Below, piece after piece: positions 20,884 through 33,139 of a DNA stretch of 64,000 nt. The position numbers and the translations under genes are program-made. Position 1 is the stretch's first letter. The number at the start of each line of letters is the position of its first letter. The notes under the pieces were generated by a model that did no database searches, was not told where the DNA came from, and was given only the letters and a program-made list of their open reading frames with translations. The DNA is from Ignavibacteriales bacterium (lineage in GTDB: Bacteria > Bacteroidota > Ignavibacteria > UBA10030 > SZUA-254), in assembly GCA_016214905.1 (NCBI GenBank), contig JACRMQ010000004.1, positions 1-64,000 on the forward strand. The letters run 5' to 3'.

Positions 20884-21978
20884 TTAATATTCAAATCCTT
20901 CCGGATTGTAAGCAACGATTCCCATATTTGTTCCGATCCAGAGATTTCCTTTATTGTCATACGCTAATGCCTGAATCTGATTACTTGGTAATTCGGGAAT
21001 GGTACTCTGATCAAAAAAAGTCCAAGTGGTATCCTGAAATCTGGTTAATCCAATATCAGTTCCGAACCATCTGATTGGTCGAAAAAAATCAACAGCGATG
21101 GCATTAATTTTTTGGTTTGGTAGTTGATAATTTGTATTACTCGCATAATAATGAGTTGATTGAGTTGTGTTGGTATTCCATTTTGTAACACCAAAAGTTT
21201 TTCCCATCCATAAAGTATTTGAATAATCGACGGCGATGGAATGAATCGGAGAATTATCAGGTCCAGATAAATTATATTTGCCCCATTGAAAACCGTTCTC
21301 ATCAAACACATATGGCACACCATCGTGTGTTCCAAAAAAAGTCCAACCATTAGCAGGATTGATTATGCAAGCGCGAACAAGTGAAGAGGTGAAGTATGTT
21401 GAATAATCTGAATAAGGATACCACCTGCCATCTATCGAACTACTGGGTAAATAATGTGCAACTCCTGAGAGAGTTGAAACCCAAACGTCACCATTTCGAT
21501 ATCTATCAGCAACAATTCCTGTAATATAATCACTTGGAATTCTATTGATCGGATCGGGTTCGTTTGGCGAATACCTTTGCCAAGCTCGTTGAGGATTGTA
21601 GCGATTATATCTTCTCAGGCCACCACCGTCCAAACCGAACCATACTGTGCTTTGTCTTCCTTCGCAAATAGCTAAAACCTTCTGGGCTTTAGTAATCGAG
21701 CCTTGGCCGTAGGTATAATAAGTCAATGAATCTCTAATTGAACTCCATATGCCGCCGTAATAAGAGATTGCCCCGCTATCTGTACCGAACCATACGAAGC
21801 CGCCTGCACCTGCGTGAATGGTGTGTATATTATCGTCGATAATATCTTTATTTGTTATTTTTGAAAATGTAAGCCAAACAGGACCTCGAACCTTCGGGGT
21901 TGTTGTATTCTTTTTGCATCCTATAAATATGGTACAAAGAATTAGTATTATTCCTGTAAAAACTGATATTTGGCGCAT
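20884..21978 (-). CDS. Seven-bladed Reg_prop-like propeller lipoprotein
   Basis: 364 residues. The lipoprotein signal ends IFIGC. Seven repeats of the W(F/I/M)GT-x-x-G type are visible (WFGTDSGAI, WFGLDGGGL, WVSTLSGVA, FFGTHDGVP, WMGKTFGVT, WFGTDIGLT, WIGTNMGIV), enough for one closed propeller like the sensor domains of hybrid two-component systems. No kinase or other domain is fused to it. It may be a free-standing surface or periplasmic sensor or binding protein. It is convergent with the TPR membrane gene with no base between the stops. Confidence 0.65.
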   Translation of the reverse strand: MRQISVFTGIILILCTIFIGCKKNTTTPKVRGPVWLTFSKITNKDIIDDNIHTIHAGAGGFVWFGTDSGAISYYGGIWSSIRDSLTYYTYGQGSITKAQKVLAICEGRQSTVWFGLDGGGLRRYNRYNPQRAWQRYSPNEPDPINRIPSDYITGIVADRYRNGDVWVSTLSGVAHYLPSSSIDGRWYPYSDYSTYFTSSLVRACIINPANGWTFFGTHDGVPYVFDENGFQWGKYNLSGPDNSPIHSIAVDYSNTLWMGKTFGVTKWNTNTTQSTHYYASNTNYQLPNQKINAIAVDFFRPIRWFGTDIGLTRFQDTTWTFFDQSTIPELPSNQIQALAYDNKGNLWIGTNMGIVAYNPEGFEY

Positions 21979-22128: not shown

Positions 22129-22157
22129 TTGACTGTTGATTTTTTTTTTGTTATAAT
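22129..22157 (+). promoter_or_regulatory. Sigma70-like promoter for the six-gene envelope operon
   Basis: TTGACT (22129-22134) and TATAAT (22152-22157) are separated by exactly 17 bases, including a T9 run. The -10 box lies about 57 bases before the first start codon at 22214. This is the E. coli-type consensus rather than the Bacteroidetes TTTG/TAnnTTTG type. Confidence 0.6.
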
Positions 22158-22213
22158 TCAATCATAAATATTTTCGTTAACGATTCCCCCTAAACGACAT
22201 ATCATATACAACT

Positions 22214-22804
22214 ATGAAACATTTTATCTGCTTTTATAAAACGGGCATTATTGGGATTATGGCCATATCTTTAATGCTGCTATCCTCAAGTTGTCAGTAC
22301 GATTACAGTAGCCCTCAACCGGGGAAATTACAAATTCGTTTAAAAACAATATCGAATAATATTCAATTCACCGAATTGAATAATTTTATAATAACATATT
22401 CAGTGATCCAAGCTGTTAAGAACGATGGATCACGTGCTGATATCTTTGAAGATTTGAATGCCATTGACACAAAACCTCTGGGAATTAACGTCCTTGATTT
22501 TCGTGCCAGAGATTCGGTTTTAATTATCGGTGAAACTTTTGTTCCTCCAGGTGATTATAGTGGAGTTCAATTCACCATAACGCCTAAAGAGAATTTAACC
22601 CTCCGAGGTTATCAAACAGTAAATGTTAATCCGGTCGGATTTGAATCTAATGTTAGAATATATCTTTCGAATTCTTATAAAGTAAATGAATATAATCTGA
22701 CAGTAGTTACGATCGAACTTAATTTGGACAAATCTTTAGTTAAGGATGCGTTTGATTATAATTTTATACCCAGTTTTCACATTTCATCAATTAAAAATTA
22801 TTGA
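22214..22804 (+). CDS. DUF4382-like lipoprotein
   Basis: 196 residues. The signal ends LSSSC and should be lipidated. The mature part is beta-rich (KLQIRLKTISNN, then PPGDYSGVQFTITPKENL), resembling the DUF4382 group of small surface lipoproteins. It opens a six-gene unit that runs to 32933; the next gene begins 24 bases after its stop. A good promoter sits just upstream. Function unknown; its position suggests a part of the same envelope complex. Confidence 0.6.
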   Translation: MKHFICFYKTGIIGIMAISLMLLSSSCQYDYSSPQPGKLQIRLKTISNNIQFTELNNFIITYSVIQAVKNDGSRADIFEDLNAIDTKPLGINVLDFRARDSVLIIGETFVPPGDYSGVQFTITPKENLTLRGYQTVNVNPVGFESNVRIYLSNSYKVNEYNLTVVTIELNLDKSLVKDAFDYNFIPSFHISSIKNY

Positions 22805-22828
22805 ATACTTATCGATTGGAACTACGGA

Positions 22829-24625
22829 ATGAAATCGAATTATCATATTTTATTTTTAGTCATTTTCCTTTTTCTAAATTGGGGTTGTCCAAATCCTAGC
22901 GATCCGGGTAGCGTTCATGGGAATCTTCGCCCGAGAACACGATTATCAAACGTGCCACCACCTGAAGATACTACCATCACAAAGAACCCTAGACTAACAT
23001 TGAATTGGATAGGTGATGATGCGGACGGTTACATCGTTGCTTTTATGTATAGGTGGAATTATGTGCTTGATAATCAACAACAATATAGAAAATATAATAT
23101 CATACTGAATATCATCGTAGATAAATTTGCTCTGATGGTTGAGACAGAAAATCCATTGCTAATACCTGCAATATATAAACATTTTGCCAATCTTGTTGGT
23201 AATGAAGGATTGTCTACAGAAGATTTAGCTACTCTTAGACGTGGAGATACAATTGCGGTACAGGGAATAAGAGTGTATGCTTCTAATCCAGATTCAATTT
23301 TATTACAAACCGGAAGTCGGGTTCGTTATAGTTTCCCGGTTCATACAAATCCTAATAGCGGTACATTTATTTTTGAATCACCCGATAGAGAAAATTTGCA
23401 TACGTTCGAGGTATCAGCTATCGATAACTTGGGTATAACATCTGAAACATTTGCAAAAGTATCTTTTATTACTCCGCAAGTTCAAGCCCCGCACGGCAAA
23501 GTCACTGGCTGGTCAGGTGGCTCTGATTTCGAACAAAAAGTTATTGTCAGAAAAGATAAAACACCTACTTTTCAAGGCATCCGCTTTGAGTATAAAGGCG
23601 TTGATCCTAATACAAGGAGTATGGATTACAGGTGGGTTGTTGACAAGGATAAATGGCTTACAGATTCCGGTTATATTCCATGGTCTGCATTTACAACGAA
23701 TGAATATGCTTATGTAACTGCAAAAGATTTTGCTGATCCTTATGATACAGTACATACATTCACCGTTCAAGCACGCAATGAGTTTGGTGCGATTGATACA
23801 ACTGGACTCATATACGACGATAATGGTAATGTTATTGATTCAGCGTGGAGAACTTTTAAGACTATTTATCCGAAGTTCTTACGTGATAGCACAGAGAGAA
23901 TATTAATTCTCAACAATTGTTACGATCGATTAATGGGCACTCCGGCATACCCATACTATTGGGATGTTGATAGTTTTTACCATAGCATACTTCACGGTTT
24001 AGGGAAACACGATTCAATTATTGATAATTTTAGAATGAGTATGGGTGTATTCCCAGATCTCGGAGAGATTGGTAAATATTCTCTGGTGATATACGTGGCT
24101 GATGTCCCTGACGCATTGTTTAGCATTCCGGTCACCTTTTCAAAAAAATATGAGATGATGATAAGGGATTATTGTTATATCGGTGGAGATTTTATAATGG
24201 GGGGTTGGAACTTATCTAGTCAACTGAATATGATTAGGGATGAAGAATTTTTTAGAAGGGTAATACATGTCGATTTTACCTCACCCCAATACTCACCGGA
24301 TCTATTCGTTAGAGCAATAGGGCAAAATAACTATCCTGATTTATATATTGATACCGCTAAAGCCGATCCTTCATGGCGGGACGGGATGAGCCACGTTCCA
24401 ATCAATCTCGCCGACGGATTTGGCGAAATTTTACATAAATATGATGCGAAATACGACAGTATAAAAATGGAAAATGCATCGCTATCAGTGATTTATAGAG
24501 GGGTAACTTTTAACTCATGTTATTTAGGAATTCCATTGTACTACATGGAGCGACCTGCGGCAGATTCTACGATTTCTCGAATATTATATGATTTTAAAAG
24601 ATCAAAAGAGGAGCGTTCGAAATGA
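22829..24625 (+). CDS. Large lipoprotein with FN3-like region, unknown function
   Basis: 598 residues. The signal ends LNWGC. Residues 40-330 look like beta-sandwich domains with fibronectin-like signatures (LTLNWIGDDADGYIVAFMYRW; HTFEVSAIDNLGI; HTFTVQARNEFGAIDTTG). The last 240 residues begin ERILILNNCYDR and contain KYSLVIYVADV and IGGDFIMGGWNLSS, an alternating beta/alpha pattern that could be a degenerate amidotransferase-like or Rossmann-like fold. I do not recognise the family. Its stop overlaps the ATG of the TonB receptor by four bases (ATGA), implying translational coupling. Confidence 0.6.
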   Translation: MKSNYHILFLVIFLFLNWGCPNPSDPGSVHGNLRPRTRLSNVPPPEDTTITKNPRLTLNWIGDDADGYIVAFMYRWNYVLDNQQQYRKYNIILNIIVDKFALMVETENPLLIPAIYKHFANLVGNEGLSTEDLATLRRGDTIAVQGIRVYASNPDSILLQTGSRVRYSFPVHTNPNSGTFIFESPDRENLHTFEVSAIDNLGITSETFAKVSFITPQVQAPHGKVTGWSGGSDFEQKVIVRKDKTPTFQGIRFEYKGVDPNTRSMDYRWVVDKDKWLTDSGYIPWSAFTTNEYAYVTAKDFADPYDTVHTFTVQARNEFGAIDTTGLIYDDNGNVIDSAWRTFKTIYPKFLRDSTERILILNNCYDRLMGTPAYPYYWDVDSFYHSILHGLGKHDSIIDNFRMSMGVFPDLGEIGKYSLVIYVADVPDALFSIPVTFSKKYEMMIRDYCYIGGDFIMGGWNLSSQLNMIRDEEFFRRVIHVDFTSPQYSPDLFVRAIGQNNYPDLYIDTAKADPSWRDGMSHVPINLADGFGEILHKYDAKYDSIKMENASLSVIYRGVTFNSCYLGIPLYYMERPAADSTISRILYDFKRSKEERSK

Positions 24626-27573
24626 AAAAATATAATCCATACATCGCAATTCTTTTTTTAATCATAACAGCTATTTCGGCAAGCTACGCTGGAAATACAG
24701 GCAAGATAACCGGTAAAATAACTGATGCCATGTCGGGAGAGCCGGTTATCGGAGCAAACGTTTCTGTGATGGGCACCCCACGTGGAGCTGTAACAGATTT
24801 TGATGGAAAATATACCATCATTGGCGTGCCGATCGGAAATTATAGCGTAAAAGCAAGTCATGTCAATTATGCCAGCGTTGAAGTCAAAGATGTAAAGGTC
24901 GGCGCTGATGAGACCACACCACTTAATTTTAAGATGACCTCAACCGAGTACCAATTAGGAGGTATAACAATAACTGCAGATCAGCAATTGGTAAATAATC
25001 TCACAACCAGTTCAACTCAAACTGTGGGTGAAAAATCTATCGCCAGTATCCCAAACGTCAAAAGTGTTGAGGACGTACTAAAATTAAAAGCAGGATTTGT
25101 AAAACAAGGAAACAATTTGTTCCTTCGCGGAGGTCGCGCAAACGAAGTTCAATACCTTGTAGATGGTATTCCTACGAATAATATCGTAAGCAACTCAGGT
25201 GAACTAGTGGCAACTAAAGCCAACGTCCAGCTGGCTCAGCTCTATGCGGGCGTAAATTCTGGTGTTATTGGAGGCGGCGCCAGCGGACTAGCAGTATCTG
25301 CCAATGCTATACAATCTGTAAGCGTTCAAACGAGCGGTTTTGATGCCGATTATGGAAATGCTCAGTCTGGTATTATTAATATAACTACAAAGTCAGGGTC
25401 TGAAAAATATACTGGATCGATTCAATTTAGAACTGATAAGATAAAAGAAAATAATCAAAATGAATCATACAGTGCTTTTTCGTTCGGTGGACCGGAACCT
25501 ATAACAAAGTATCTCTTACCCGGATTCGGTTTCCAGATCCCGGGCGCATTAACCTTTTTCATCAGTGCAGATGTTAATCGCAATGATGGTCCTTATCAAT
25601 ATGTGCATAACGAATTTTACAATCCGGTTGAACGCAGAGTGGAGCTCAATGGTTTTCTCGGAGGTGTTCTAAACGGCTTAGGATTTAGATTTCGAGATAA
25701 TCAAAGGAATTCATTCACCTTCAATTCCAAGCTAAAGTATGATATAAGCGGCAATGATCAAGTGAGTTTCGGTTACCGTGCAAGTATCGGATCAAGACAT
25801 GATTATATTCGGGCTTGGAAGTATAGAGCCGATTCTTCATCAATCGGCGCAAGTCTATCGATCCAGAATAATCTTTCATGGCAACATTTCTTCAACGAAA
25901 GATCGTTCATGAAAGTATATTTTGCAAAACTTGAAAATCATGATGGAAATGATATAGCCGGAATTACTCCTGCAATGTACTCATCAGCATGGGAAAATTT
26001 GGATATTAACAACGATTACTTTAACGACTTGGGAACATCGCAACGATGGTACAAATCGTTGACTACTATATGGTCATTCCGATTTGATCTTAATACTCAA
26101 ATCCATCCACTTCATATGTTGAAAACAGGTTTTGAAGTCAATTATGAAGAAATACAATCCACTGAGATCGTTTATCCAACAGTTCCGCACAGCATAGGTG
26201 ATCGCTATATTATTCCGCCTGTTACTCCTCAGGATGATCCGGAAGGAAGGTATCAGCGTGGGCTTTATCCGGGATATGGTTCCTACCGTTGGTATATGAA
26301 TCAGTATCCAAGCAGGGGCGGTTGGTATCTTCAGGATAATATCGAACTTTCCGGACTTAACCTTCACGTCGGAATTCGTTACGATTATCTCGATATCGGT
26401 CGTCAAGTTTATGATCAAAAATTCATAGATATGTGGAGGATGCAATATGATTGGAGAGATTCAATTGAAGGTAGACCCAATCCTGACTGGGTTTATGATT
26501 TAGAGTATGGTAATCAGGTAAATGAGCAAAATGGCAAAACTATTGTCGGACGTATTCATGAGGGTAGAGGTTTGGACGATGGCGCCCGCTTTTGGTATTA
26601 CTTAACACATGGATATTTTAGCCCGCGACTTTCAATCGGATATCCGGTGACTGACAGAATTGTGTTTTACTTTAATTATGGTCATTTTTTACAATTTCCC
26701 GATAGAGATCAATATTATCGCGATCCATTTTTACCGGATAAAGATGCTTGGATAGGAAATCCATCTTTAAAACCACAACGCACTGTTGCTTATGAGGCTG
26801 GATTTGAAGATCAATTTACAGATGATATGGCATTTTCAATACATGCATTTTACAAAGATATTTTCGATTATGCCACACCCGTGAGCAGAGGTGACTATTC
26901 AATCTTTAAAAATCTAGACTATGCAAGTACACGAGGATTTGAATTGACCTTAAATCAAGCGTTTGCAGGTAATTTTTCAACCGCTGTTAGCTATTCATAT
27001 CAAATTGCAAAAGGTCGTTCATCGAATCCTCTTGCCGCGATTTTCCAGAGAGAATTTCAATTACCTCGTGAAACAAGACTTGATTGGGACCAAAATCACA
27101 CTGCAAATATATTCACAACATATCGGGTTGGTCCGCAAGAAGAAGGAACATTCGGTATCCCATATCTAAACAATTACGGTGTTTCCCTCACCTGGAATTT
27201 TGGCACAGGATTTCCGTATAATGGATTCAATGGTGGACGTACTACAGCCCGGAATGTTTATTTAATAAATAGCGAAACTACTCCATATACAACGACCTTA
27301 AACTTGTCGATGTACAAGGGAATACAATTGTTCAATAAAATTAATTTATTGTTAACATTTGATGTTACAAATCTCCTTGATAGAAGAAATCCGGTCAAAC
27401 CGGCAATCTACAGCCTGACGAAGCAAGTTTATCGTTATGGTGATATCGATCCCGATACACCCACTGGTGGTGTTATGCTTCCTTGGTTTAAAGCAGAGAA
27501 TAGATTGCTAGACCGATCGAATTTTGAAGCTCCGCGGCAGGTTATTCTTGGATTAAAGTTAAATTGGGATTAA
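24622..27573 (+). CDS. TonB-dependent receptor with carboxypeptidase-regulatory-like N-terminus
   Basis: 983 residues. Signal peptide to about 23; residues 26-112 are a carboxypeptidase-regulatory-like beta-sandwich (GKITGKITDAMSGEPVIGANV); the plug follows (SVEDVLKLKAGFV, LFLRGGRANEVQYLVDGIP) and then a 22-strand-type barrel. It should span the outer membrane and move or bind a ligand using TonB energy. No SusD-like lipoprotein is adjacent, so it is not a standard SusCD pair. It is cotranslated with the lipoprotein before it and followed 26 bases later by a secreted cargo gene. Ligand unknown. Confidence 0.85.
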   Translation: MKKYNPYIAILFLIITAISASYAGNTGKITGKITDAMSGEPVIGANVSVMGTPRGAVTDFDGKYTIIGVPIGNYSVKASHVNYASVEVKDVKVGADETTPLNFKMTSTEYQLGGITITADQQLVNNLTTSSTQTVGEKSIASIPNVKSVEDVLKLKAGFVKQGNNLFLRGGRANEVQYLVDGIPTNNIVSNSGELVATKANVQLAQLYAGVNSGVIGGGASGLAVSANAIQSVSVQTSGFDADYGNAQSGIINITTKSGSEKYTGSIQFRTDKIKENNQNESYSAFSFGGPEPITKYLLPGFGFQIPGALTFFISADVNRNDGPYQYVHNEFYNPVERRVELNGFLGGVLNGLGFRFRDNQRNSFTFNSKLKYDISGNDQVSFGYRASIGSRHDYIRAWKYRADSSSIGASLSIQNNLSWQHFFNERSFMKVYFAKLENHDGNDIAGITPAMYSSAWENLDINNDYFNDLGTSQRWYKSLTTIWSFRFDLNTQIHPLHMLKTGFEVNYEEIQSTEIVYPTVPHSIGDRYIIPPVTPQDDPEGRYQRGLYPGYGSYRWYMNQYPSRGGWYLQDNIELSGLNLHVGIRYDYLDIGRQVYDQKFIDMWRMQYDWRDSIEGRPNPDWVYDLEYGNQVNEQNGKTIVGRIHEGRGLDDGARFWYYLTHGYFSPRLSIGYPVTDRIVFYFNYGHFLQFPDRDQYYRDPFLPDKDAWIGNPSLKPQRTVAYEAGFEDQFTDDMAFSIHAFYKDIFDYATPVSRGDYSIFKNLDYASTRGFELTLNQAFAGNFSTAVSYSYQIAKGRSSNPLAAIFQREFQLPRETRLDWDQNHTANIFTTYRVGPQEEGTFGIPYLNNYGVSLTWNFGTGFPYNGFNGGRTTARNVYLINSETTPYTTTLNLSMYKGIQLFNKINLLLTFDVTNLLDRRNPVKPAIYSLTKQVYRYGDIDPDTPTGGVMLPWFKAENRLLDRSNFEAPRQVILGLKLNWD

Positions 27574-27599
27574 TTATCTGATAGCATGAGGAATTCATT

Positions 27600-30032
27600 A
27601 TGAAAAAAATATTCACTTTAATATTCATCGTTCTTTTTTCTATTGGAATAACATATTCTGAGAAAAAAGATAAGAGAAGCAACAATCTCCAAAAACCAAC
27701 CGTCAATTTTGCCGTAAAGGTAAAACAAGGTTTCAATATGAAAGTATGGCTCAGCAATCAGATGACGATGGGTACGCAAGCCTGGGATGGCGGTTCTGAA
27801 TCAACACCGGACGGATTTGGCTTAGAATATCCTGCGGGTTCAGGAGTTGAGCATTTATATGGTGCAGGTCCAAGAATAGGCGGTATAATTGACGGCACAA
27901 TTCACGTATCTGAAGGATATGAAGGATCATTACCTAAGAAAGAATTTCTTCCGGAACGAGCACATCTTCCACGTGAAAGATTTTGGCAAACGTCGATTAG
28001 AGATACGAATTGGAAGAATCCATACACTGACCGATATGAAACAATACCCAACAAGCGTGGTTGCGACGATGATAATGATGGTGCGATCGATGAAGATGAT
28101 CTTGATGGTATTGATAATGACGGTGATTGGAATCCCCTAACAGATGACGTTGGTTATGACGGATTAGCAGATCCTTTTGAATTATCTTGCAATGGTAAAC
28201 CATATGATCCAGAGGCAAACCCAGACCCGTTCGGAGATAATTATGACCCCGGAGTTCGAGATCGGTGTCATCCAACCGAATCTGGTGAATTTCCGTGGAA
28301 ACGAAATAAAGATATCTGGACTGAAAAAAACGGGATGCCTGATCATGGCGAACCAAATGTAGATGAAGATTACGCTGCCATTTCAGAAAACGATTACTAT
28401 TGTTCTGCAACAGACACATTTAGAACCCCAACAGTCGCTGGCCATTTCCCAATGTACATAAAGGTTATTCAAAAATCTTATGCTTGGGATAATAAATCTG
28501 CAGAAGGCATTCTACCATTTGATTATTATTTTATCAATCTCGGAAAATACTCTATTAAGAGGGTATACGTTGGTTTTTTTGCAGATTGTGATTTAGGACC
28601 TATAAATATTGACCGTTATTATGAAAATAATTACACGGCATATATGGAATCATTAAGGACGGCATACACACACAATCCAGTAAATCGTGGATCTACACCA
28701 ATTGGATTCACAGTGCTTGCCACACCTAAACCATTGGATGAAATTGATTTTGTGTGGAATTGGGCAGACTGGGCAACCCCCGGACATATCGATCCACGAA
28801 CTAACGATTCATTGATTTACACATGGATGGATGGAAGTGCGTTCCCAAATAAGATTGGTCCAAATCAATCTCCTGATCAGTTATCAGACACCCGATTTTA
28901 TTTTTCATTCGGTCCTTTTGAGACACTTGAACCTGGAGATACGCTTAGGATTTCGATGGCCCTTGTTGCCGGTGATGCAGTTTCTGCCGGTCCGAATAAT
29001 CTAAAAGAAAATGCCGAAGATGCAATGAAATTATATACTCGCGGATATGTAACTCCGATTGTTCCTATTTCTCCGATGCTAAAGTTAGATACTTTACCGG
29101 ATCCGGCAAGGGGCATTCGTTTAACTTGGTTCCCACATCTTGATTATAGGGGAAACCCAACAGGACCATTTACGGTTTGGGATGATTCTAATAAAATTGC
29201 TCAAGGATTTCCACCAGATCATTGGCGAAGGGTAGCACCACCGTGCGGCGAGGGAAGTTCTGCCTGCAGTGGGCACAAATGTGAAGGTGATTCGTTACCG
29301 GGTGGAAGAATATTTTCAGGTTTCAGATTATATCGTAGTGAAGACATCGGTGTAAATCCACAGCAAAGCAGTTTCACTTTAATAAAAGAATATTCAATAC
29401 CTGATTCTGCAAGATTATGGAGTATAGAAGAACTTGTTGCGAAATATCTCGACTCCACATTTGTTGATTCACCGCTGGTAAGAGGGAAAAAATATTGGTA
29501 CTCGGTAACCGCATTCGGGTTGCCAGATATCACCATAATCCCCGTTCAACAGCCCGATAACAGTGTACGCTACGATACTTTGTATTCATCGAATAGTGAG
29601 TCTGATTTTTCGCAAAACCGTGTTTCAATAGATTTACCTTTTGCCCCATCGACCGAAAACGGGAAAGTCTTGGTGGTGCCTAACCCGTATCGTGTTAATG
29701 AAGAGTACACATATGAAAACGGCGGATGGGAGGGTGTTGCAAAATTTTGGGACGAATCTAAGAGAAAAATAAAATTAATCCATCTTCCAACAGGTGAATG
29801 GACAGTTAGAATATTTTCACTCGTCGGTGATTTAATAACAACAATAAAAAATACTCAAGCATCTGGCTACACAAGAGGTGATCAGTATATTGAAGAGTAC
29901 CGTCCCGATCGTGGTGAAATTAACTGGGATTTGCTTAGCGAGAGCTATAGGGCTTTAGCAAGTGGTGTCTATGTGTTCAGTGTTGAATCTTCATTCGGCA
30001 CACAAATCGGTAAATTTGTTTTGATACGTTAA
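27600..30032 (+). CDS. Secreted protein with acidic Asp repeats and variant T9SS-like tail
   Basis: 810 residues with a signal peptide (to about 20). At about 155-195 lies a run of Asp-rich motifs (DDDNDGAIDEDD, DGIDNDGDWN) like calcium-binding thrombospondin-3/dockerin loops. The tail has VVPNPYR in place of YPNPFNP, followed by WTVRIFSLVGDLITTI and a final GVYVFSVESS...GKFVLIR, matching the overall layout of a type A sorting domain. It is probably the surface cargo of the TonB receptor operon. Two cysteines pairs near residue 550 (PPCGEGSSACSGHKC) may form disulfides or a metal site. Function unknown. Confidence 0.6.
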   Translation: MKKIFTLIFIVLFSIGITYSEKKDKRSNNLQKPTVNFAVKVKQGFNMKVWLSNQMTMGTQAWDGGSESTPDGFGLEYPAGSGVEHLYGAGPRIGGIIDGTIHVSEGYEGSLPKKEFLPERAHLPRERFWQTSIRDTNWKNPYTDRYETIPNKRGCDDDNDGAIDEDDLDGIDNDGDWNPLTDDVGYDGLADPFELSCNGKPYDPEANPDPFGDNYDPGVRDRCHPTESGEFPWKRNKDIWTEKNGMPDHGEPNVDEDYAAISENDYYCSATDTFRTPTVAGHFPMYIKVIQKSYAWDNKSAEGILPFDYYFINLGKYSIKRVYVGFFADCDLGPINIDRYYENNYTAYMESLRTAYTHNPVNRGSTPIGFTVLATPKPLDEIDFVWNWADWATPGHIDPRTNDSLIYTWMDGSAFPNKIGPNQSPDQLSDTRFYFSFGPFETLEPGDTLRISMALVAGDAVSAGPNNLKENAEDAMKLYTRGYVTPIVPISPMLKLDTLPDPARGIRLTWFPHLDYRGNPTGPFTVWDDSNKIAQGFPPDHWRRVAPPCGEGSSACSGHKCEGDSLPGGRIFSGFRLYRSEDIGVNPQQSSFTLIKEYSIPDSARLWSIEELVAKYLDSTFVDSPLVRGKKYWYSVTAFGLPDITIIPVQQPDNSVRYDTLYSSNSESDFSQNRVSIDLPFAPSTENGKVLVVPNPYRVNEEYTYENGGWEGVAKFWDESKRKIKLIHLPTGEWTVRIFSLVGDLITTIKNTQASGYTRGDQYIEEYRPDRGEINWDLLSESYRALASGVYVFSVESSFGTQIGKFVLIR

Positions 30033-30057
30033 TGAAGAATTCTAGGAGAATATTACA

Positions 30058-31002
30058 ATGAAAACAAAATTTCGAATTCAAATATTAACCGGCTTAATAT
30101 TATTTTTATCTATTGCCAGTGTTAATTTAAATGCTGGTAACCGTTCGGGAACTGTTTCTGAACAATTCTTAAAAATCTCTACAAGCGCAAGAGCTATTGG
30201 TATAGGAGGAGCTCAAGTTGCCGTAGCTGATGGAGTCTCCTCAATAGCATTTAATCCGGCGGGTATAATGTCGGTAAATGATATGAGTGTTGGAATGACA
30301 TATACGGCATGGTTTGCTGATATCCAGCATAGTTTTATTGGTGTTGTCAAAAACCTTCCTGGTATTGGCGCTGTTGGAGTTAGTGTTATTATGCTTGTTA
30401 CCGACGATATGATAGAAACAACAAACTCTTTTCCAGAAGGAACTGGAAGAAACTTCCGTGCTAGCGATTATGCTTTCAGCATTGCATACGCAAGGCAGGT
30501 AACAGATCAATTCCGCGTTGGTGTAAATGGTAAATATATCCGATCATATCTCTACAACGACGAAATATCGGCTTCTTCGTTCGCATTTGATATTGGAACT
30601 CTTTATCATATACCAATGCTAAAAAGTCATATTGGGGTTTCTCTCACAAATATTGGAAAAGATGTAAAATTTATTCAAGAACAATATTCCTTACCAACAG
30701 CATTACGTTTTGGTGTATTAGTGGATATTCTAAAAGAAGATAACAATCAATTGATTACCACGATGCAGATTGCCCGTCTCAATGACTCTGATGAGCAATA
30801 TAATTTTGGTGCTGAATACGTCTTCAATAATTTACTGGCTCTCAGAACCGGTTGGAAGTTTGCCTACGATCATGAGAGTTTTACCGGCGGATTTGGTGTA
30901 AAAATGGATCCGATTGGTCTTAACGGTACCTTAGATTACGGATATAATTATTTTCAATATTTGCCCGGTACACATTCATTTACATTTGAATTGCAATTTT
31001 AA
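30058..31002 (+). CDS. PorV/PorQ-family outer-membrane barrel
   Basis: 314 residues. Signal peptide to about 26, then SEQFLKISTSARAIGIGGAQVAVADGVSSIAFNPAG, the signature start of the PorV/PorQ (FadL-like) family, and a beta-barrel ending FTFELQF with C-terminal Phe. PorV is the T9SS subunit that carries cargo from the translocon to the attachment complex. Encoded directly behind a T9SS-like cargo gene (25 bases), this copy may be a dedicated shuttle rather than the housekeeping PorV. Family call is firm, dedicated role is inference. Confidence 0.8.
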   Translation: MKTKFRIQILTGLILFLSIASVNLNAGNRSGTVSEQFLKISTSARAIGIGGAQVAVADGVSSIAFNPAGIMSVNDMSVGMTYTAWFADIQHSFIGVVKNLPGIGAVGVSVIMLVTDDMIETTNSFPEGTGRNFRASDYAFSIAYARQVTDQFRVGVNGKYIRSYLYNDEISASSFAFDIGTLYHIPMLKSHIGVSLTNIGKDVKFIQEQYSLPTALRFGVLVDILKEDNNQLITTMQIARLNDSDEQYNFGAEYVFNNLLALRTGWKFAYDHESFTGGFGVKMDPIGLNGTLDYGYNYFQYLPGTHSFTFELQF

Positions 31003-31040
31003 AAATTACAAGTTGGCTGCTTTTATCAATGGAGAAAGTA

Positions 31041-32933
31041 ATGAAATCATTTTTAGCTAATATTTTAATCATCATACTATTAATCTCATCTATAGTTCTC
31101 TTATTTAACGGTTGTGAATTATTTACCAGACCGAATGGATCTACTGACCGTAAACCTGTCTATGGACAAGACCTGATCATATCCGAAGTTTGCACAGTAC
31201 CACCCGATCGTTATTATGCGTATTCTTGGATAGAGATTATGAATCCAACAAGACGCGCAATTAATTGGATAGAAACTAGCCAGCCTGCAACCGCATTTAT
31301 GGTGGGTGATAACGGGACTATCTGGAAAACAACAAACAATGGAAACTCCTGGCTACAACTTCCTACCTCAACAATAAATAATCTAAATTCTATCAGTTTT
31401 CCCGGGATAGATGTTGGTATTGTAGTGGGTGACCAGGGTAAGATTTTGAAATTATTAGTGACTGACACTTCGTCGCAAGTACAGGATATATCTGAAGCCC
31501 ACAGTGTAGTAACTGGAGGAAAAAATCTGAACGATGTGGAAATGTATTGGAATAATACTACTGGTTATATCGTTGGTGATAACGGTTTGATTTTACGGAC
31601 GAATGACAGAGGAAACACCTGGGCAAAGTATCAAACCACTACTGTACCGTATAATTTACGCTCAGTAACAATAAAAGGTTTCAGTTTAACATGGGCAGTT
31701 GGAGATTCCGGGACAATCTTAAAATCAACCGCGCAGAAAGTCTGGGTTCCGAAGACTCCACCCGATTTATTCCTAAAAGCGAATTTTAAATCTTGTACTT
31801 TTATAAGAGATACAGGTTGGGTTGTTGGAGAGAATGGCGCTATAGCATATACTAAAACCGCTGGCAATATCTTTTCTGAACAATTTCCTCCCGCCGGTTT
31901 AGAACATGCTAATTTTAATTATGTATTTTTTGGTGCCGGGCTAGGTGACGCACCAAACAGATATACTTATAACATTCAAGAAGGATTCATAATCGGTGAT
32001 AGTGGCGTTATTTTACGAACCAAAAATTACGGAGAACTCTGGGAAAGAATTGATAGTCGGACAACTGAAAATTTACATTTTATGCATTTTGTCGATAGCT
32101 TGAGGGGATGGATTGTTGGTGCTAAAGGGACTCTTCTTATAACATTCGATGGCGGATTTGAATGGTTCCCACTGAAAATAGGAAATGCAAACTTATATGC
32201 AGGGCATTTCAGTCCCGCTCTTTTCACACTCCAGAGCGTTTATGGTCTTGAAATAAAAGGTAAGCGTAAAGAATATTATTACGACCCTGTGACGAATACT
32301 ACAAATTACAACGTTTTTGTGAAAGTTGATACCGGTTATTTATATTTTAATCCGGCTCAGCTTGCAACAAGGGGAGTGGAAATAAGACCAATTAGTGCCG
32401 GAGGTTTTTGTATAATCAACAACGATTCTGTTCGGTTTGCCAATCACACGAAACTTGGCCCCGGACCCTATACGAAAATTAATGCGAGTGTAAATGTTTT
32501 CTTCGATCCTACATCTCCTGATACGATTAGAAGAGTCCTTTGGGATCTCTTGAGTGAGGGAGAAATAAGGTTAGTGAAATATGATGTTGAATATTACGAT
32601 CCTCCTGGGACGAGTGATGATAGATTCACACGATTCGATAAAAAAGTAATTGATGTAGTTCGTTGGGGTAATTTCCAAATAAAAGATTCCGTTTCGTATG
32701 CCAATGAGCTTTATCAGGTATGGCCTCAAAATAGTATATATGTTTCGGTCCCTTATCCTGGTACGAATACAATGGCATGGAATATATCAGCACCCGCAAT
32801 ACCGGAAGGTTATTCTCTCAGTCGGTATGCTGATGATTACGGCAAAATAGAAACTGAGATTAACTCGTCTAATTCATTTTATCTTGCGGAAAAACCGTTG
32901 CCCGGATGGGTTAGCCAACGCAGTAAAAAATAA
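31041..32933 (+). CDS. Ycf48-like seven-bladed propeller lipoprotein
   Basis: 630 residues. The ATG at 31041 is chosen because GGAG stands 6 bases upstream; an ATG at 31029 is also in frame. The signal ends LFNGC. Seven repeats of the form VGDxGxIxxT are visible (VGDNGTIWKT, VGDQGKILKL, VGDNGLILRT, VGDSGTILKS, VGENGAIAYT, IGDSGVILRT, VGAKGTLLIT), enough for one closed Ycf48/BNR propeller over residues 85-380. A C-terminal beta-rich region follows. It closes the operon and is followed by a strong terminator. Probably a surface-exposed binding scaffold. Confidence 0.7.
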   Translation: MKSFLANILIIILLISSIVLLFNGCELFTRPNGSTDRKPVYGQDLIISEVCTVPPDRYYAYSWIEIMNPTRRAINWIETSQPATAFMVGDNGTIWKTTNNGNSWLQLPTSTINNLNSISFPGIDVGIVVGDQGKILKLLVTDTSSQVQDISEAHSVVTGGKNLNDVEMYWNNTTGYIVGDNGLILRTNDRGNTWAKYQTTTVPYNLRSVTIKGFSLTWAVGDSGTILKSTAQKVWVPKTPPDLFLKANFKSCTFIRDTGWVVGENGAIAYTKTAGNIFSEQFPPAGLEHANFNYVFFGAGLGDAPNRYTYNIQEGFIIGDSGVILRTKNYGELWERIDSRTTENLHFMHFVDSLRGWIVGAKGTLLITFDGGFEWFPLKIGNANLYAGHFSPALFTLQSVYGLEIKGKRKEYYYDPVTNTTNYNVFVKVDTGYLYFNPAQLATRGVEIRPISAGGFCIINNDSVRFANHTKLGPGPYTKINASVNVFFDPTSPDTIRRVLWDLLSEGEIRLVKYDVEYYDPPGTSDDRFTRFDKKVIDVVRWGNFQIKDSVSYANELYQVWPQNSIYVSVPYPGTNTMAWNISAPAIPEGYSLSRYADDYGKIETEINSSNSFYLAEKPLPGWVSQRSKK

Positions 32934-32951
32934 ATTTTAAATGATACACTT

Positions 32952-32983
32952 AAGCCAGGAATAAACTTCCTGGCTTTTTTTTT
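32952..32983 (+). terminator. Rho-independent terminator of the envelope operon
   Basis: AAGCCAGGA (32952-32960) and TCCTGGCTT (32968-32976) form a perfect 9-bp stem with a 7-base loop, followed by a run of T to 32983. It lies 19 bases after the last gene of the six-gene operon. Confidence 0.93.
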
Positions 32984-33050: not shown

Positions 33051-33139
33051 TGGTGCTGAAGGTGGGAGTTGAACCCACACCCGGGGTAAGCCGGACTGGA
33101 TTTTGAGTCCAGCGCGTCTGCCAGTTCCGCCACTTCAGC
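33051..33139 (-). tRNA. tRNA-Leu (anticodon CAA), CCA encoded
   Basis: On the minus strand the acceptor GCTGAAG begins at 33139 and pairs with CTTCAGC; discriminator A and an encoded CCA follow (33051-33053). The anticodon stem CTGGA/TCCAG encloses loop CTCAAAA, so the anticodon is CAA (Leu, codon UUG). The long variable arm is class II and the T arm GTGGG-TTCAACT-CCCAC is intact. It is transcribed toward the terminator of the preceding operon. Confidence 0.95.

Follow-up and report, generated by a model that had tools for sequence, protein, structure and literature searches.

A candidate TonB-dependent uptake operon of an Ignavibacteriales bacterium with a PorV/PorQ-family barrel and a putative type IX-secreted surface protein but no SusD

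The C-terminal domains (CTDs) of the type IX secretion system (T9SS) proteins PorZ and PorU are not removed; PorZ stays on PorQ and PorU on PorV, and a review has proposed that cognate PorV-like barrels protect uncleaved tails (PMC10202324). Type B substrates of F. johnsoniae depend on a cognate PorP/SprF barrel, commonly the product of an adjacent gene, and type A substrates all share one PorV (PMC12618676). Here we describe an operon in a window of 64,000 nt (the whole stretch of DNA analysed, from one contig of an Ignavibacteriales bacterium), whose parts belong to known families. The closest ideas are PorZ-PorQ, SprB-SprF and SusCD, and the combination is apparently undescribed. The initial annotation had proposed a candidate undescribed surface system, and in the open-licence literature on PorV with TonB, Ignavibacteria, Marinimicrobia, polysaccharide utilisation and PorV paralogues or ‘PorV-like’ proteins we found no description of the operon, in agreement with this proposal.

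Operon structure and conservation of the gene order

Reading the open reading frames of the window, we delineated six genes on the + strand between positions 22214 and 32933 (Table 1). The intergenic gaps are 24, -4 (ATGA), 26, 25 and 26 bases, with an overall range of -4 to +26. The promoter and the terminator, taken as bare patterns, lie little above chance and are weak evidence: the window-wide scan yielded 75 promoter-like sites against 57 expected and 16 terminator patterns against 9.5 expected. In a genome of the same genus (L039), the non-coding DNA around the operon has drifted, but the promoter hexamers and their spacing are identical to those in the window and the terminator stem is retained; a further locus (L041) keeps the promoter in part. 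Within the orthologous clusters, most gaps fall between -10 and +42 bases. Because promoter and terminator are kept amid diverged flanks and the gaps in orthologous clusters are short, the six genes are likely to form a single predicted transcript. The initial annotation had named a promoter, a tight same-strand row of genes, an ATGA overlap and a terminator, and all were found at the places claimed. A tRNA-Leu (CAA) gene lies just 3′ of the terminator on the - strand (33051-33139).

Table 1 Positions of the operon genes, their domains and flanking elements in the window.
Feature	Position	Strand	Evidence
Divergent propeller lipoprotein gene	20884-21978	-	Pfam Reg_prop 54 bits; NCBIfam PorZ 45 bits (cut-off 260)
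Promoter TTGACT-17-TATAAT, extended -10, 11/12	22129-22157	+	Pattern scan; kept in L039
Gene 1, small lipoprotein, DUF4382	22214-22804	+	Pfam PF14321 31.3 bits, cut-off 25
Gene 2, lipoprotein, Ig/FN3-like domains and alpha/beta C-terminal part	22829-24625	+	Structure model
Gene 3, TonB-dependent receptor: CarboxypepD_reg, Plug and barrel	24622-27573	+	PF00593, PF13620, PF13715, PF07715
Gene 4, Sec-exported (predicted) surface protein of the core family	27600-30032	+	Family in 133/296 phylum genomes, E<=1e-20
Gene 4 predicted beta-supersandwich, residues 44-486	27729-29057	+	AF2 model, structure alignment
Gene 4 Asp-rich insert (DDDNDG...DNDGDW), residues ~147-253	28038-28358	+	
Gene 4 C-terminal domain, PorZ/PorU-like T9SS signal	29667-30029	+	Family CTD matches
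Gene 5, dedicated PorV/PorQ-family barrel	30058-31002	+	NF033709 204.5 bits, cut-off 90
Gene 6, lamin-tail-domain (LTD) lipoprotein interrupted by YCF48 propeller	31029-32933	+	Pfam and relatives
Gene 6 inserted propeller, residues ~83-404	31275-32240	+	Pfam, orthologue comparison
Intrinsic terminator, 10-bp stem and T-run	32952-32976	+	Pattern scan; kept in L039

At least three families of this taxonomic order share the arrangement gene 1-gene 2-TonB-gene 4-PorV-gene 6. Within family f1, it is kept on every contig of sufficient length, apart from one locus with no recognisable gene 1 (L045) and one with gene 6 split over two frames (L041). The full order is also found in families f3 and f5. 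A chance string of genes was rejected on account of this conservation, and an orphan operon limited to one species was likewise rejected. The six genes of the initial annotation thus stand, although it had omitted the conserved divergent propeller lipoprotein gene upstream. This gene is kept in nearly all f1 loci, is adjacent in L039, L041, L042, L045, L046, L048, L185, L186 and L187 but not in L047, and matches the PorZ propeller only in part, below the NCBIfam cut-off. At L187:3623-6060 it occurs in two tandem copies upstream of genes 1 and 2.

Two alternative arrangements built from these families exist in the order: (cargo)-gene 1-gene 2-TonB-gene 4-PorV-(GH-like), and gene 4-(T9SS cargo)-gene 2-TonB-PorV-(lipoprotein), a version of which is also present in the source genome (L036). 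At L177:4899-7280, and likewise in L176, L188 and L189, PorV is followed by a gene for a glycoside hydrolase-like protein of the (alpha/alpha)6 type; the L177 protein matches MGH1/trehalase. A supersandwich is normally followed by a barrel of this kind.

Scanning the collection with gene 4 as the sole query, we identified 60 loci outside the f1 set, in Ignavibacteria, Melioribacteraceae, Calditrichota, Neomarinimicrobiota, Zixibacteria, Delongbacteria, Fermentibacteria and Rhodothermales. In 45 of them gene 4 is immediately preceded by a TonB receptor gene and immediately followed by a PorV-family gene; of the 15 exceptions, most are truncated by the end of a contig or differ by a single inserted or reordered gene. 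In a second, independent sample of 296 phylum genomes, gene 4 was found in 133 at a maximum E-value of 1e-20. Taking the best match per family, the TonB-gene 4-PorV order was present in all 18 families, with no intervening gene in 17. Homologues are therefore clustered in relatives rather than scattered. The distance matrices of the three core proteins correlate with coefficients of 0.92, 0.89 and 0.84 (maximum of 1000 permutations, 0.18), to which the shared species phylogeny contributes a part. The three proteins of the L036 module also group with the same set of relatives. These comparisons suggest that the conserved heart consists of three of the six genes, the TonB receptor, gene 4 and the PorV-family barrel. 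Conserved order in relatives, the check proposed in the initial annotation, was thus found in f1, f3 and f5; the wide conservation covers three of its six genes.

The three core proteins

Against the SusC/RagA model TIGR04056 the gene 3 receptor scores 54.6 bits (cut-off 368), and by this curated cut-off it is not a SusC. No match to SusD_RagB (PF07980) was found in the whole genome, and none of the SusD-like Pfam models matches the operon's own proteins, which bears out the earlier description of a TonB receptor without a SusD partner. A canonical SusCD system was rejected on the receptor score and the genome-wide lack of PF07980. Core-bearing genomes can also have SusCD, as in Melioribacter roseus (PMC3534657), so the core is not simply a replacement for it. 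Elsewhere in the source genome, an ECF-sigma-like gene is followed by a chimeric protein (L033:8054-10729; contig C5, ~193.5-196.2 kb) composed of an anti-sigma-like zinc-finger start, a membrane segment, a carboxypeptidase-regulatory/plug segment with 62% identity to gene 3 residues 25-186, and a von Willebrand A-like region. This chimera may have borrowed the receptor N-terminus.

For gene 4 we found no convincing match in Pfam or NCBIfam, and sequence searches of solved structures gave no useful match for genes 2 and 4. In an AF2 model of low confidence (mean pLDDT 61), residues 44-486 are predicted to form a beta-supersandwich as in GH116, GH94 and GH65, a shared fold that by itself shows no function. 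This part aligns to 7dks with a VIA-align Z of 15.7 (257 aligned, rmsd 3.8), and the 50 top-ranked rows of the structure search are almost all of the same fold class. No catalytic barrel follows the supersandwich in the model. The Asp-rich insert is missing from the f3 and f5 orthologues. Other gene 4 proteins have an Asp-rich stretch at a different position, and DNDGDW segments occur at two positions overall; the pattern suggests that gene 4 proteins acquired an Asp-rich metal-binding insert independently. In relatives of the family (L061:10004-16788, L065 and L068), fusions of ~1100 amino acids join the N-terminal half of gene 4 to the C-terminal part of gene 2 and are followed by a propeller protein of 1140 amino acids. 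A second gene 4-like protein of 690 amino acids in the source genome (L031:8880-12028; C7, ~486.4-489.5 kb) adjoins a copy of the divergent propeller lipoprotein, with no TonB or PorV gene there, and the two possibly represent an orphan pair.

Among 65 CTDs of the gene 4 family, 50 match the PorZ model, 44 PorU and 24 type A TIGR04183; CHU_C is matched by three, at E 0.002 or worse, and TIGR04131 (type B) by none. Compared with the PDB, a profile of these CTDs matches only PorU (6za2) and PorZ (5m11). Profile-profile comparison with ordinary CTDs, of which only nine were included, gave a mixed outcome, with a probability of 90% for the window type and 40% for the broad set. The CTD of the window's gene 4, taken alone, matches none of the curated models (including TIGR04183/PF18962), and its link to PorZ and PorU therefore rests on its family. 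All 47 core-bearing genomes examined, which made up the whole of this sample, match SprA (46 over the cut-off) and PorU (44 over the cut-off); the source genome scores 1050 bits for SprA and 962 bits for PorU. The suggested T9SS-like tail is thus backed by the family CTDs and the presence of T9SS genes, but not by the window CTD on its own.

Gene 5 falls below the cut-offs of the PorV equivalog NF033710 (98 bits, cut-off 250), the PorQ equivalog NF033711 (102 bits, cut-off 220) and the PorV2 equivalog; its best PDB match is PorV (6h3i_F, 9.6e-16). Canonical copies are found elsewhere in the genome, PorV beside PorU on contig C9 (273 bits) and PorQ at C4:211725 (247 bits), and together with the scores of gene 5 they led us to reject a canonical PorV or PorQ identity. 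The barrels of the core loci form a branch separate from canonical PorV and PorQ with 96% SH-aLRT in a quick tree. The proposal that the operon has its own T9SS shuttle is supported, in the sense of a PorV-family partner, by the NF033709 match and this separate branch. PorV-family matches number 16 in the source genome and 42 in a Caldithrix genome.

The barrel could also belong permanently to the receptor complex, as a structural subunit, and anchor gene 4 independently of the T9SS, or gene 4 could reach the surface by another route. Gene 5 scoring below both equivalog cut-offs would fit, as would the precedent of BamG, a FadL/PorV-type barrel that holds BamH (PMC12578637); the PorZ/PorU-type CTDs of gene 4 and the occurrence of SprA and PorU in all 47 core-bearing genomes argue against it, and we regard this explanation as very unlikely.

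Accessory lipoproteins, gene neighbourhood and proposed function

Three genes of the operon are lipoprotein-like (1, 2 and 6), which corrects the earlier count of two lipoproteins and a separate propeller. Gene 1 has orthologues in families f1, f3 and f5. Gene 2 lacks a convincing match in Pfam or NCBIfam; its model (pLDDT 72) has a chain of the levan utilisome as top Foldseek match (8aa2_G, E 4.7e-7, Z 8.0), a weak resemblance to a levan-utilisome lipoprotein at the level of predicted structure, and its C-terminal part alone reaches a best fold-search Z of only 7.5, too low for interpretation. Among gene 6 members, nine of nine match PSII_BNR and five of nine LTD. The f3 and f5 orthologues are 284-333 amino acids long and lack the propeller but cover model positions 16-601, including both ends; the propeller is therefore most simply explained as an insertion within the window's family. 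The L170 orthologue matches LTD with 40 bits (Pfam cut-off 34.3), and the window's gene 6, artificially joined across the propeller, matches the lamin-tail domain only at E 0.07. The ‘propeller lipoprotein’ of the initial annotation thus does have a propeller, but as a whole appears to be a lamin-tail-domain protein into which it was inserted. Lipoproteins 1, 2 and 6 are lineage-specific additions to the conserved three-gene heart.

Wider core loci are neighboured by GH3, GH16, GH9, GH13, CBM9 and malectin domains, and by SSF and other transporters. The independent family sample yielded GH3, GH16, GH9, GH130, sugar ABC transporters, MFS_2 and LacI regulators. None of these families is among the 25 commonest families listed for PorU-adjacent control loci of core-bearing genomes, a control smaller than the core-locus sample and unmatched for gene type. 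The neighbourhoods point to glycan or oligosaccharide uptake by the wider core family. Neither CAZymes nor sugar transporters adjoin the window operon or those of its closest relatives, and an oligosaccharide is possibly the substrate of the window operon. Of the earlier statement that the system ‘builds or feeds’ a surface structure, we found no evidence for building; feeding, understood as uptake, is favoured by the glycan genes around the wider family.

The reading we prefer, with a probability of roughly 0.58, is a SusD-less TonB uptake complex in which the T9SS delivers the surface subunit and a dedicated PorV-like barrel holds it in place. We infer how gene 4 is secreted and retained, and how the complex forms and captures its substrate, as follows. 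The gene 3 receptor would serve as the energised outer-membrane channel. Gene 4 would be exported by Sec and then by the T9SS to the surface, where its supersandwich and FN3-like part would bind the substrate, the role that SusD has for SusC. The PorZ/PorU-like CTD of gene 4 would be captured at the SprA exit by the gene 5 barrel, which would keep gene 4 uncleaved and park it beside the receptor. Lipoproteins 1, 2 and 6 would be lineage-specific accessory surface subunits, the window operon being a version with three extra lipoproteins.

The same genes might instead encode a T9SS surface-display unit. Gene 4 would then make up, together with the PorV-like barrel, a stable adhesin or a structure like an S-layer, and the TonB receptor would provide energy or a signal rather than import. 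PorP/SprF and SprB, where cognate shuttles direct adhesins (PMC12618676), set a precedent, and the FN3/Ig-like domains, the Asp-rich, probably Ca-binding inserts and the lack of enzymes near the window operon are consistent with display. Import better fits the repeated presence of GHs, sugar transporters and LacI regulators at core loci elsewhere, which makes display rather unlikely.

Possible, if doubtful, is a sub-case of the uptake complex, compatible with our preferred reading, in which the window-type operon takes up a non-glycan substrate (a peptide, metal complex or cofactor) and the glycan link is limited to other branches. Window-type operons contain and adjoin neither CAZymes nor sugar transporters, as expected in this case; the supersandwich predicted in the window's own gene 4 and the likeness of gene 2, weak as it is, to a levan-utilisome lipoprotein speak for a glycan.

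Read as an uptake complex, the core may, with about even odds, represent a third way of building an energised outer-membrane uptake system in the FCB superphylum, namely a TonB channel with a T9SS-delivered, non-lipoprotein surface-binding subunit that is kept uncleaved by a barrel of a third PorV/PorQ subfamily. If true, this would also account for many of the PorV-family paralogues in these phyla, and the large expansions of the PorV family outside Bacteroidia would gain a function. It would join TonB import and type IX secretion, which have been studied separately, in one surface complex, and would offer many uncultured FCB phyla a possible route of polymer uptake that does not need SusCD. 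The gene order, the retained CTD and the cognate barrel yield directly testable predictions.

Comparison with described systems

With SusCD and the levan utilisome the operon shares a TonB channel, a putative surface-binding partner and accessory lipoproteins and, in the wider core family only, glycan-degrading neighbours. It differs in lacking SusD, in a receptor far below the SusC/RagA cut-off, and in a partner, gene 4, that has a predicted T9SS-type CTD and no lipobox.

The type B cargo and PorP/SprF pairs of F. johnsoniae likewise have a cargo gene followed by the gene for its own shuttle barrel, and there the pair is stoichiometric (PMC12618676). In contrast, the operon has no TIGR04131 domain, its barrel belongs to the PorV/PorQ family, a TonB receptor is present and the arrangement is FCB-wide.

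In the BamG-BamH part of the Bacteroidota BAM, a FadL/PorV-type barrel holds an extracellular partner (PMC12578637), as gene 5 would hold gene 4, but this is an assembly machinery with BamA rather than a TonB receptor.

In the PorZ-PorQ and PorU-PorV attachment complexes, a CTD protein keeps its tail and stays on a PorV/PorQ-family barrel (PMC10202324). PorZ and PorU are also the best matches of the CTDs of the gene 4 family, and gene 4 would be retained on gene 5 in the same way. Unlike these complexes, the operon has an adjacent TonB receptor, gene 5 falls in a branch of its own, and the ectodomain of gene 4 is neither the propeller of PorZ nor the peptidase of PorU.
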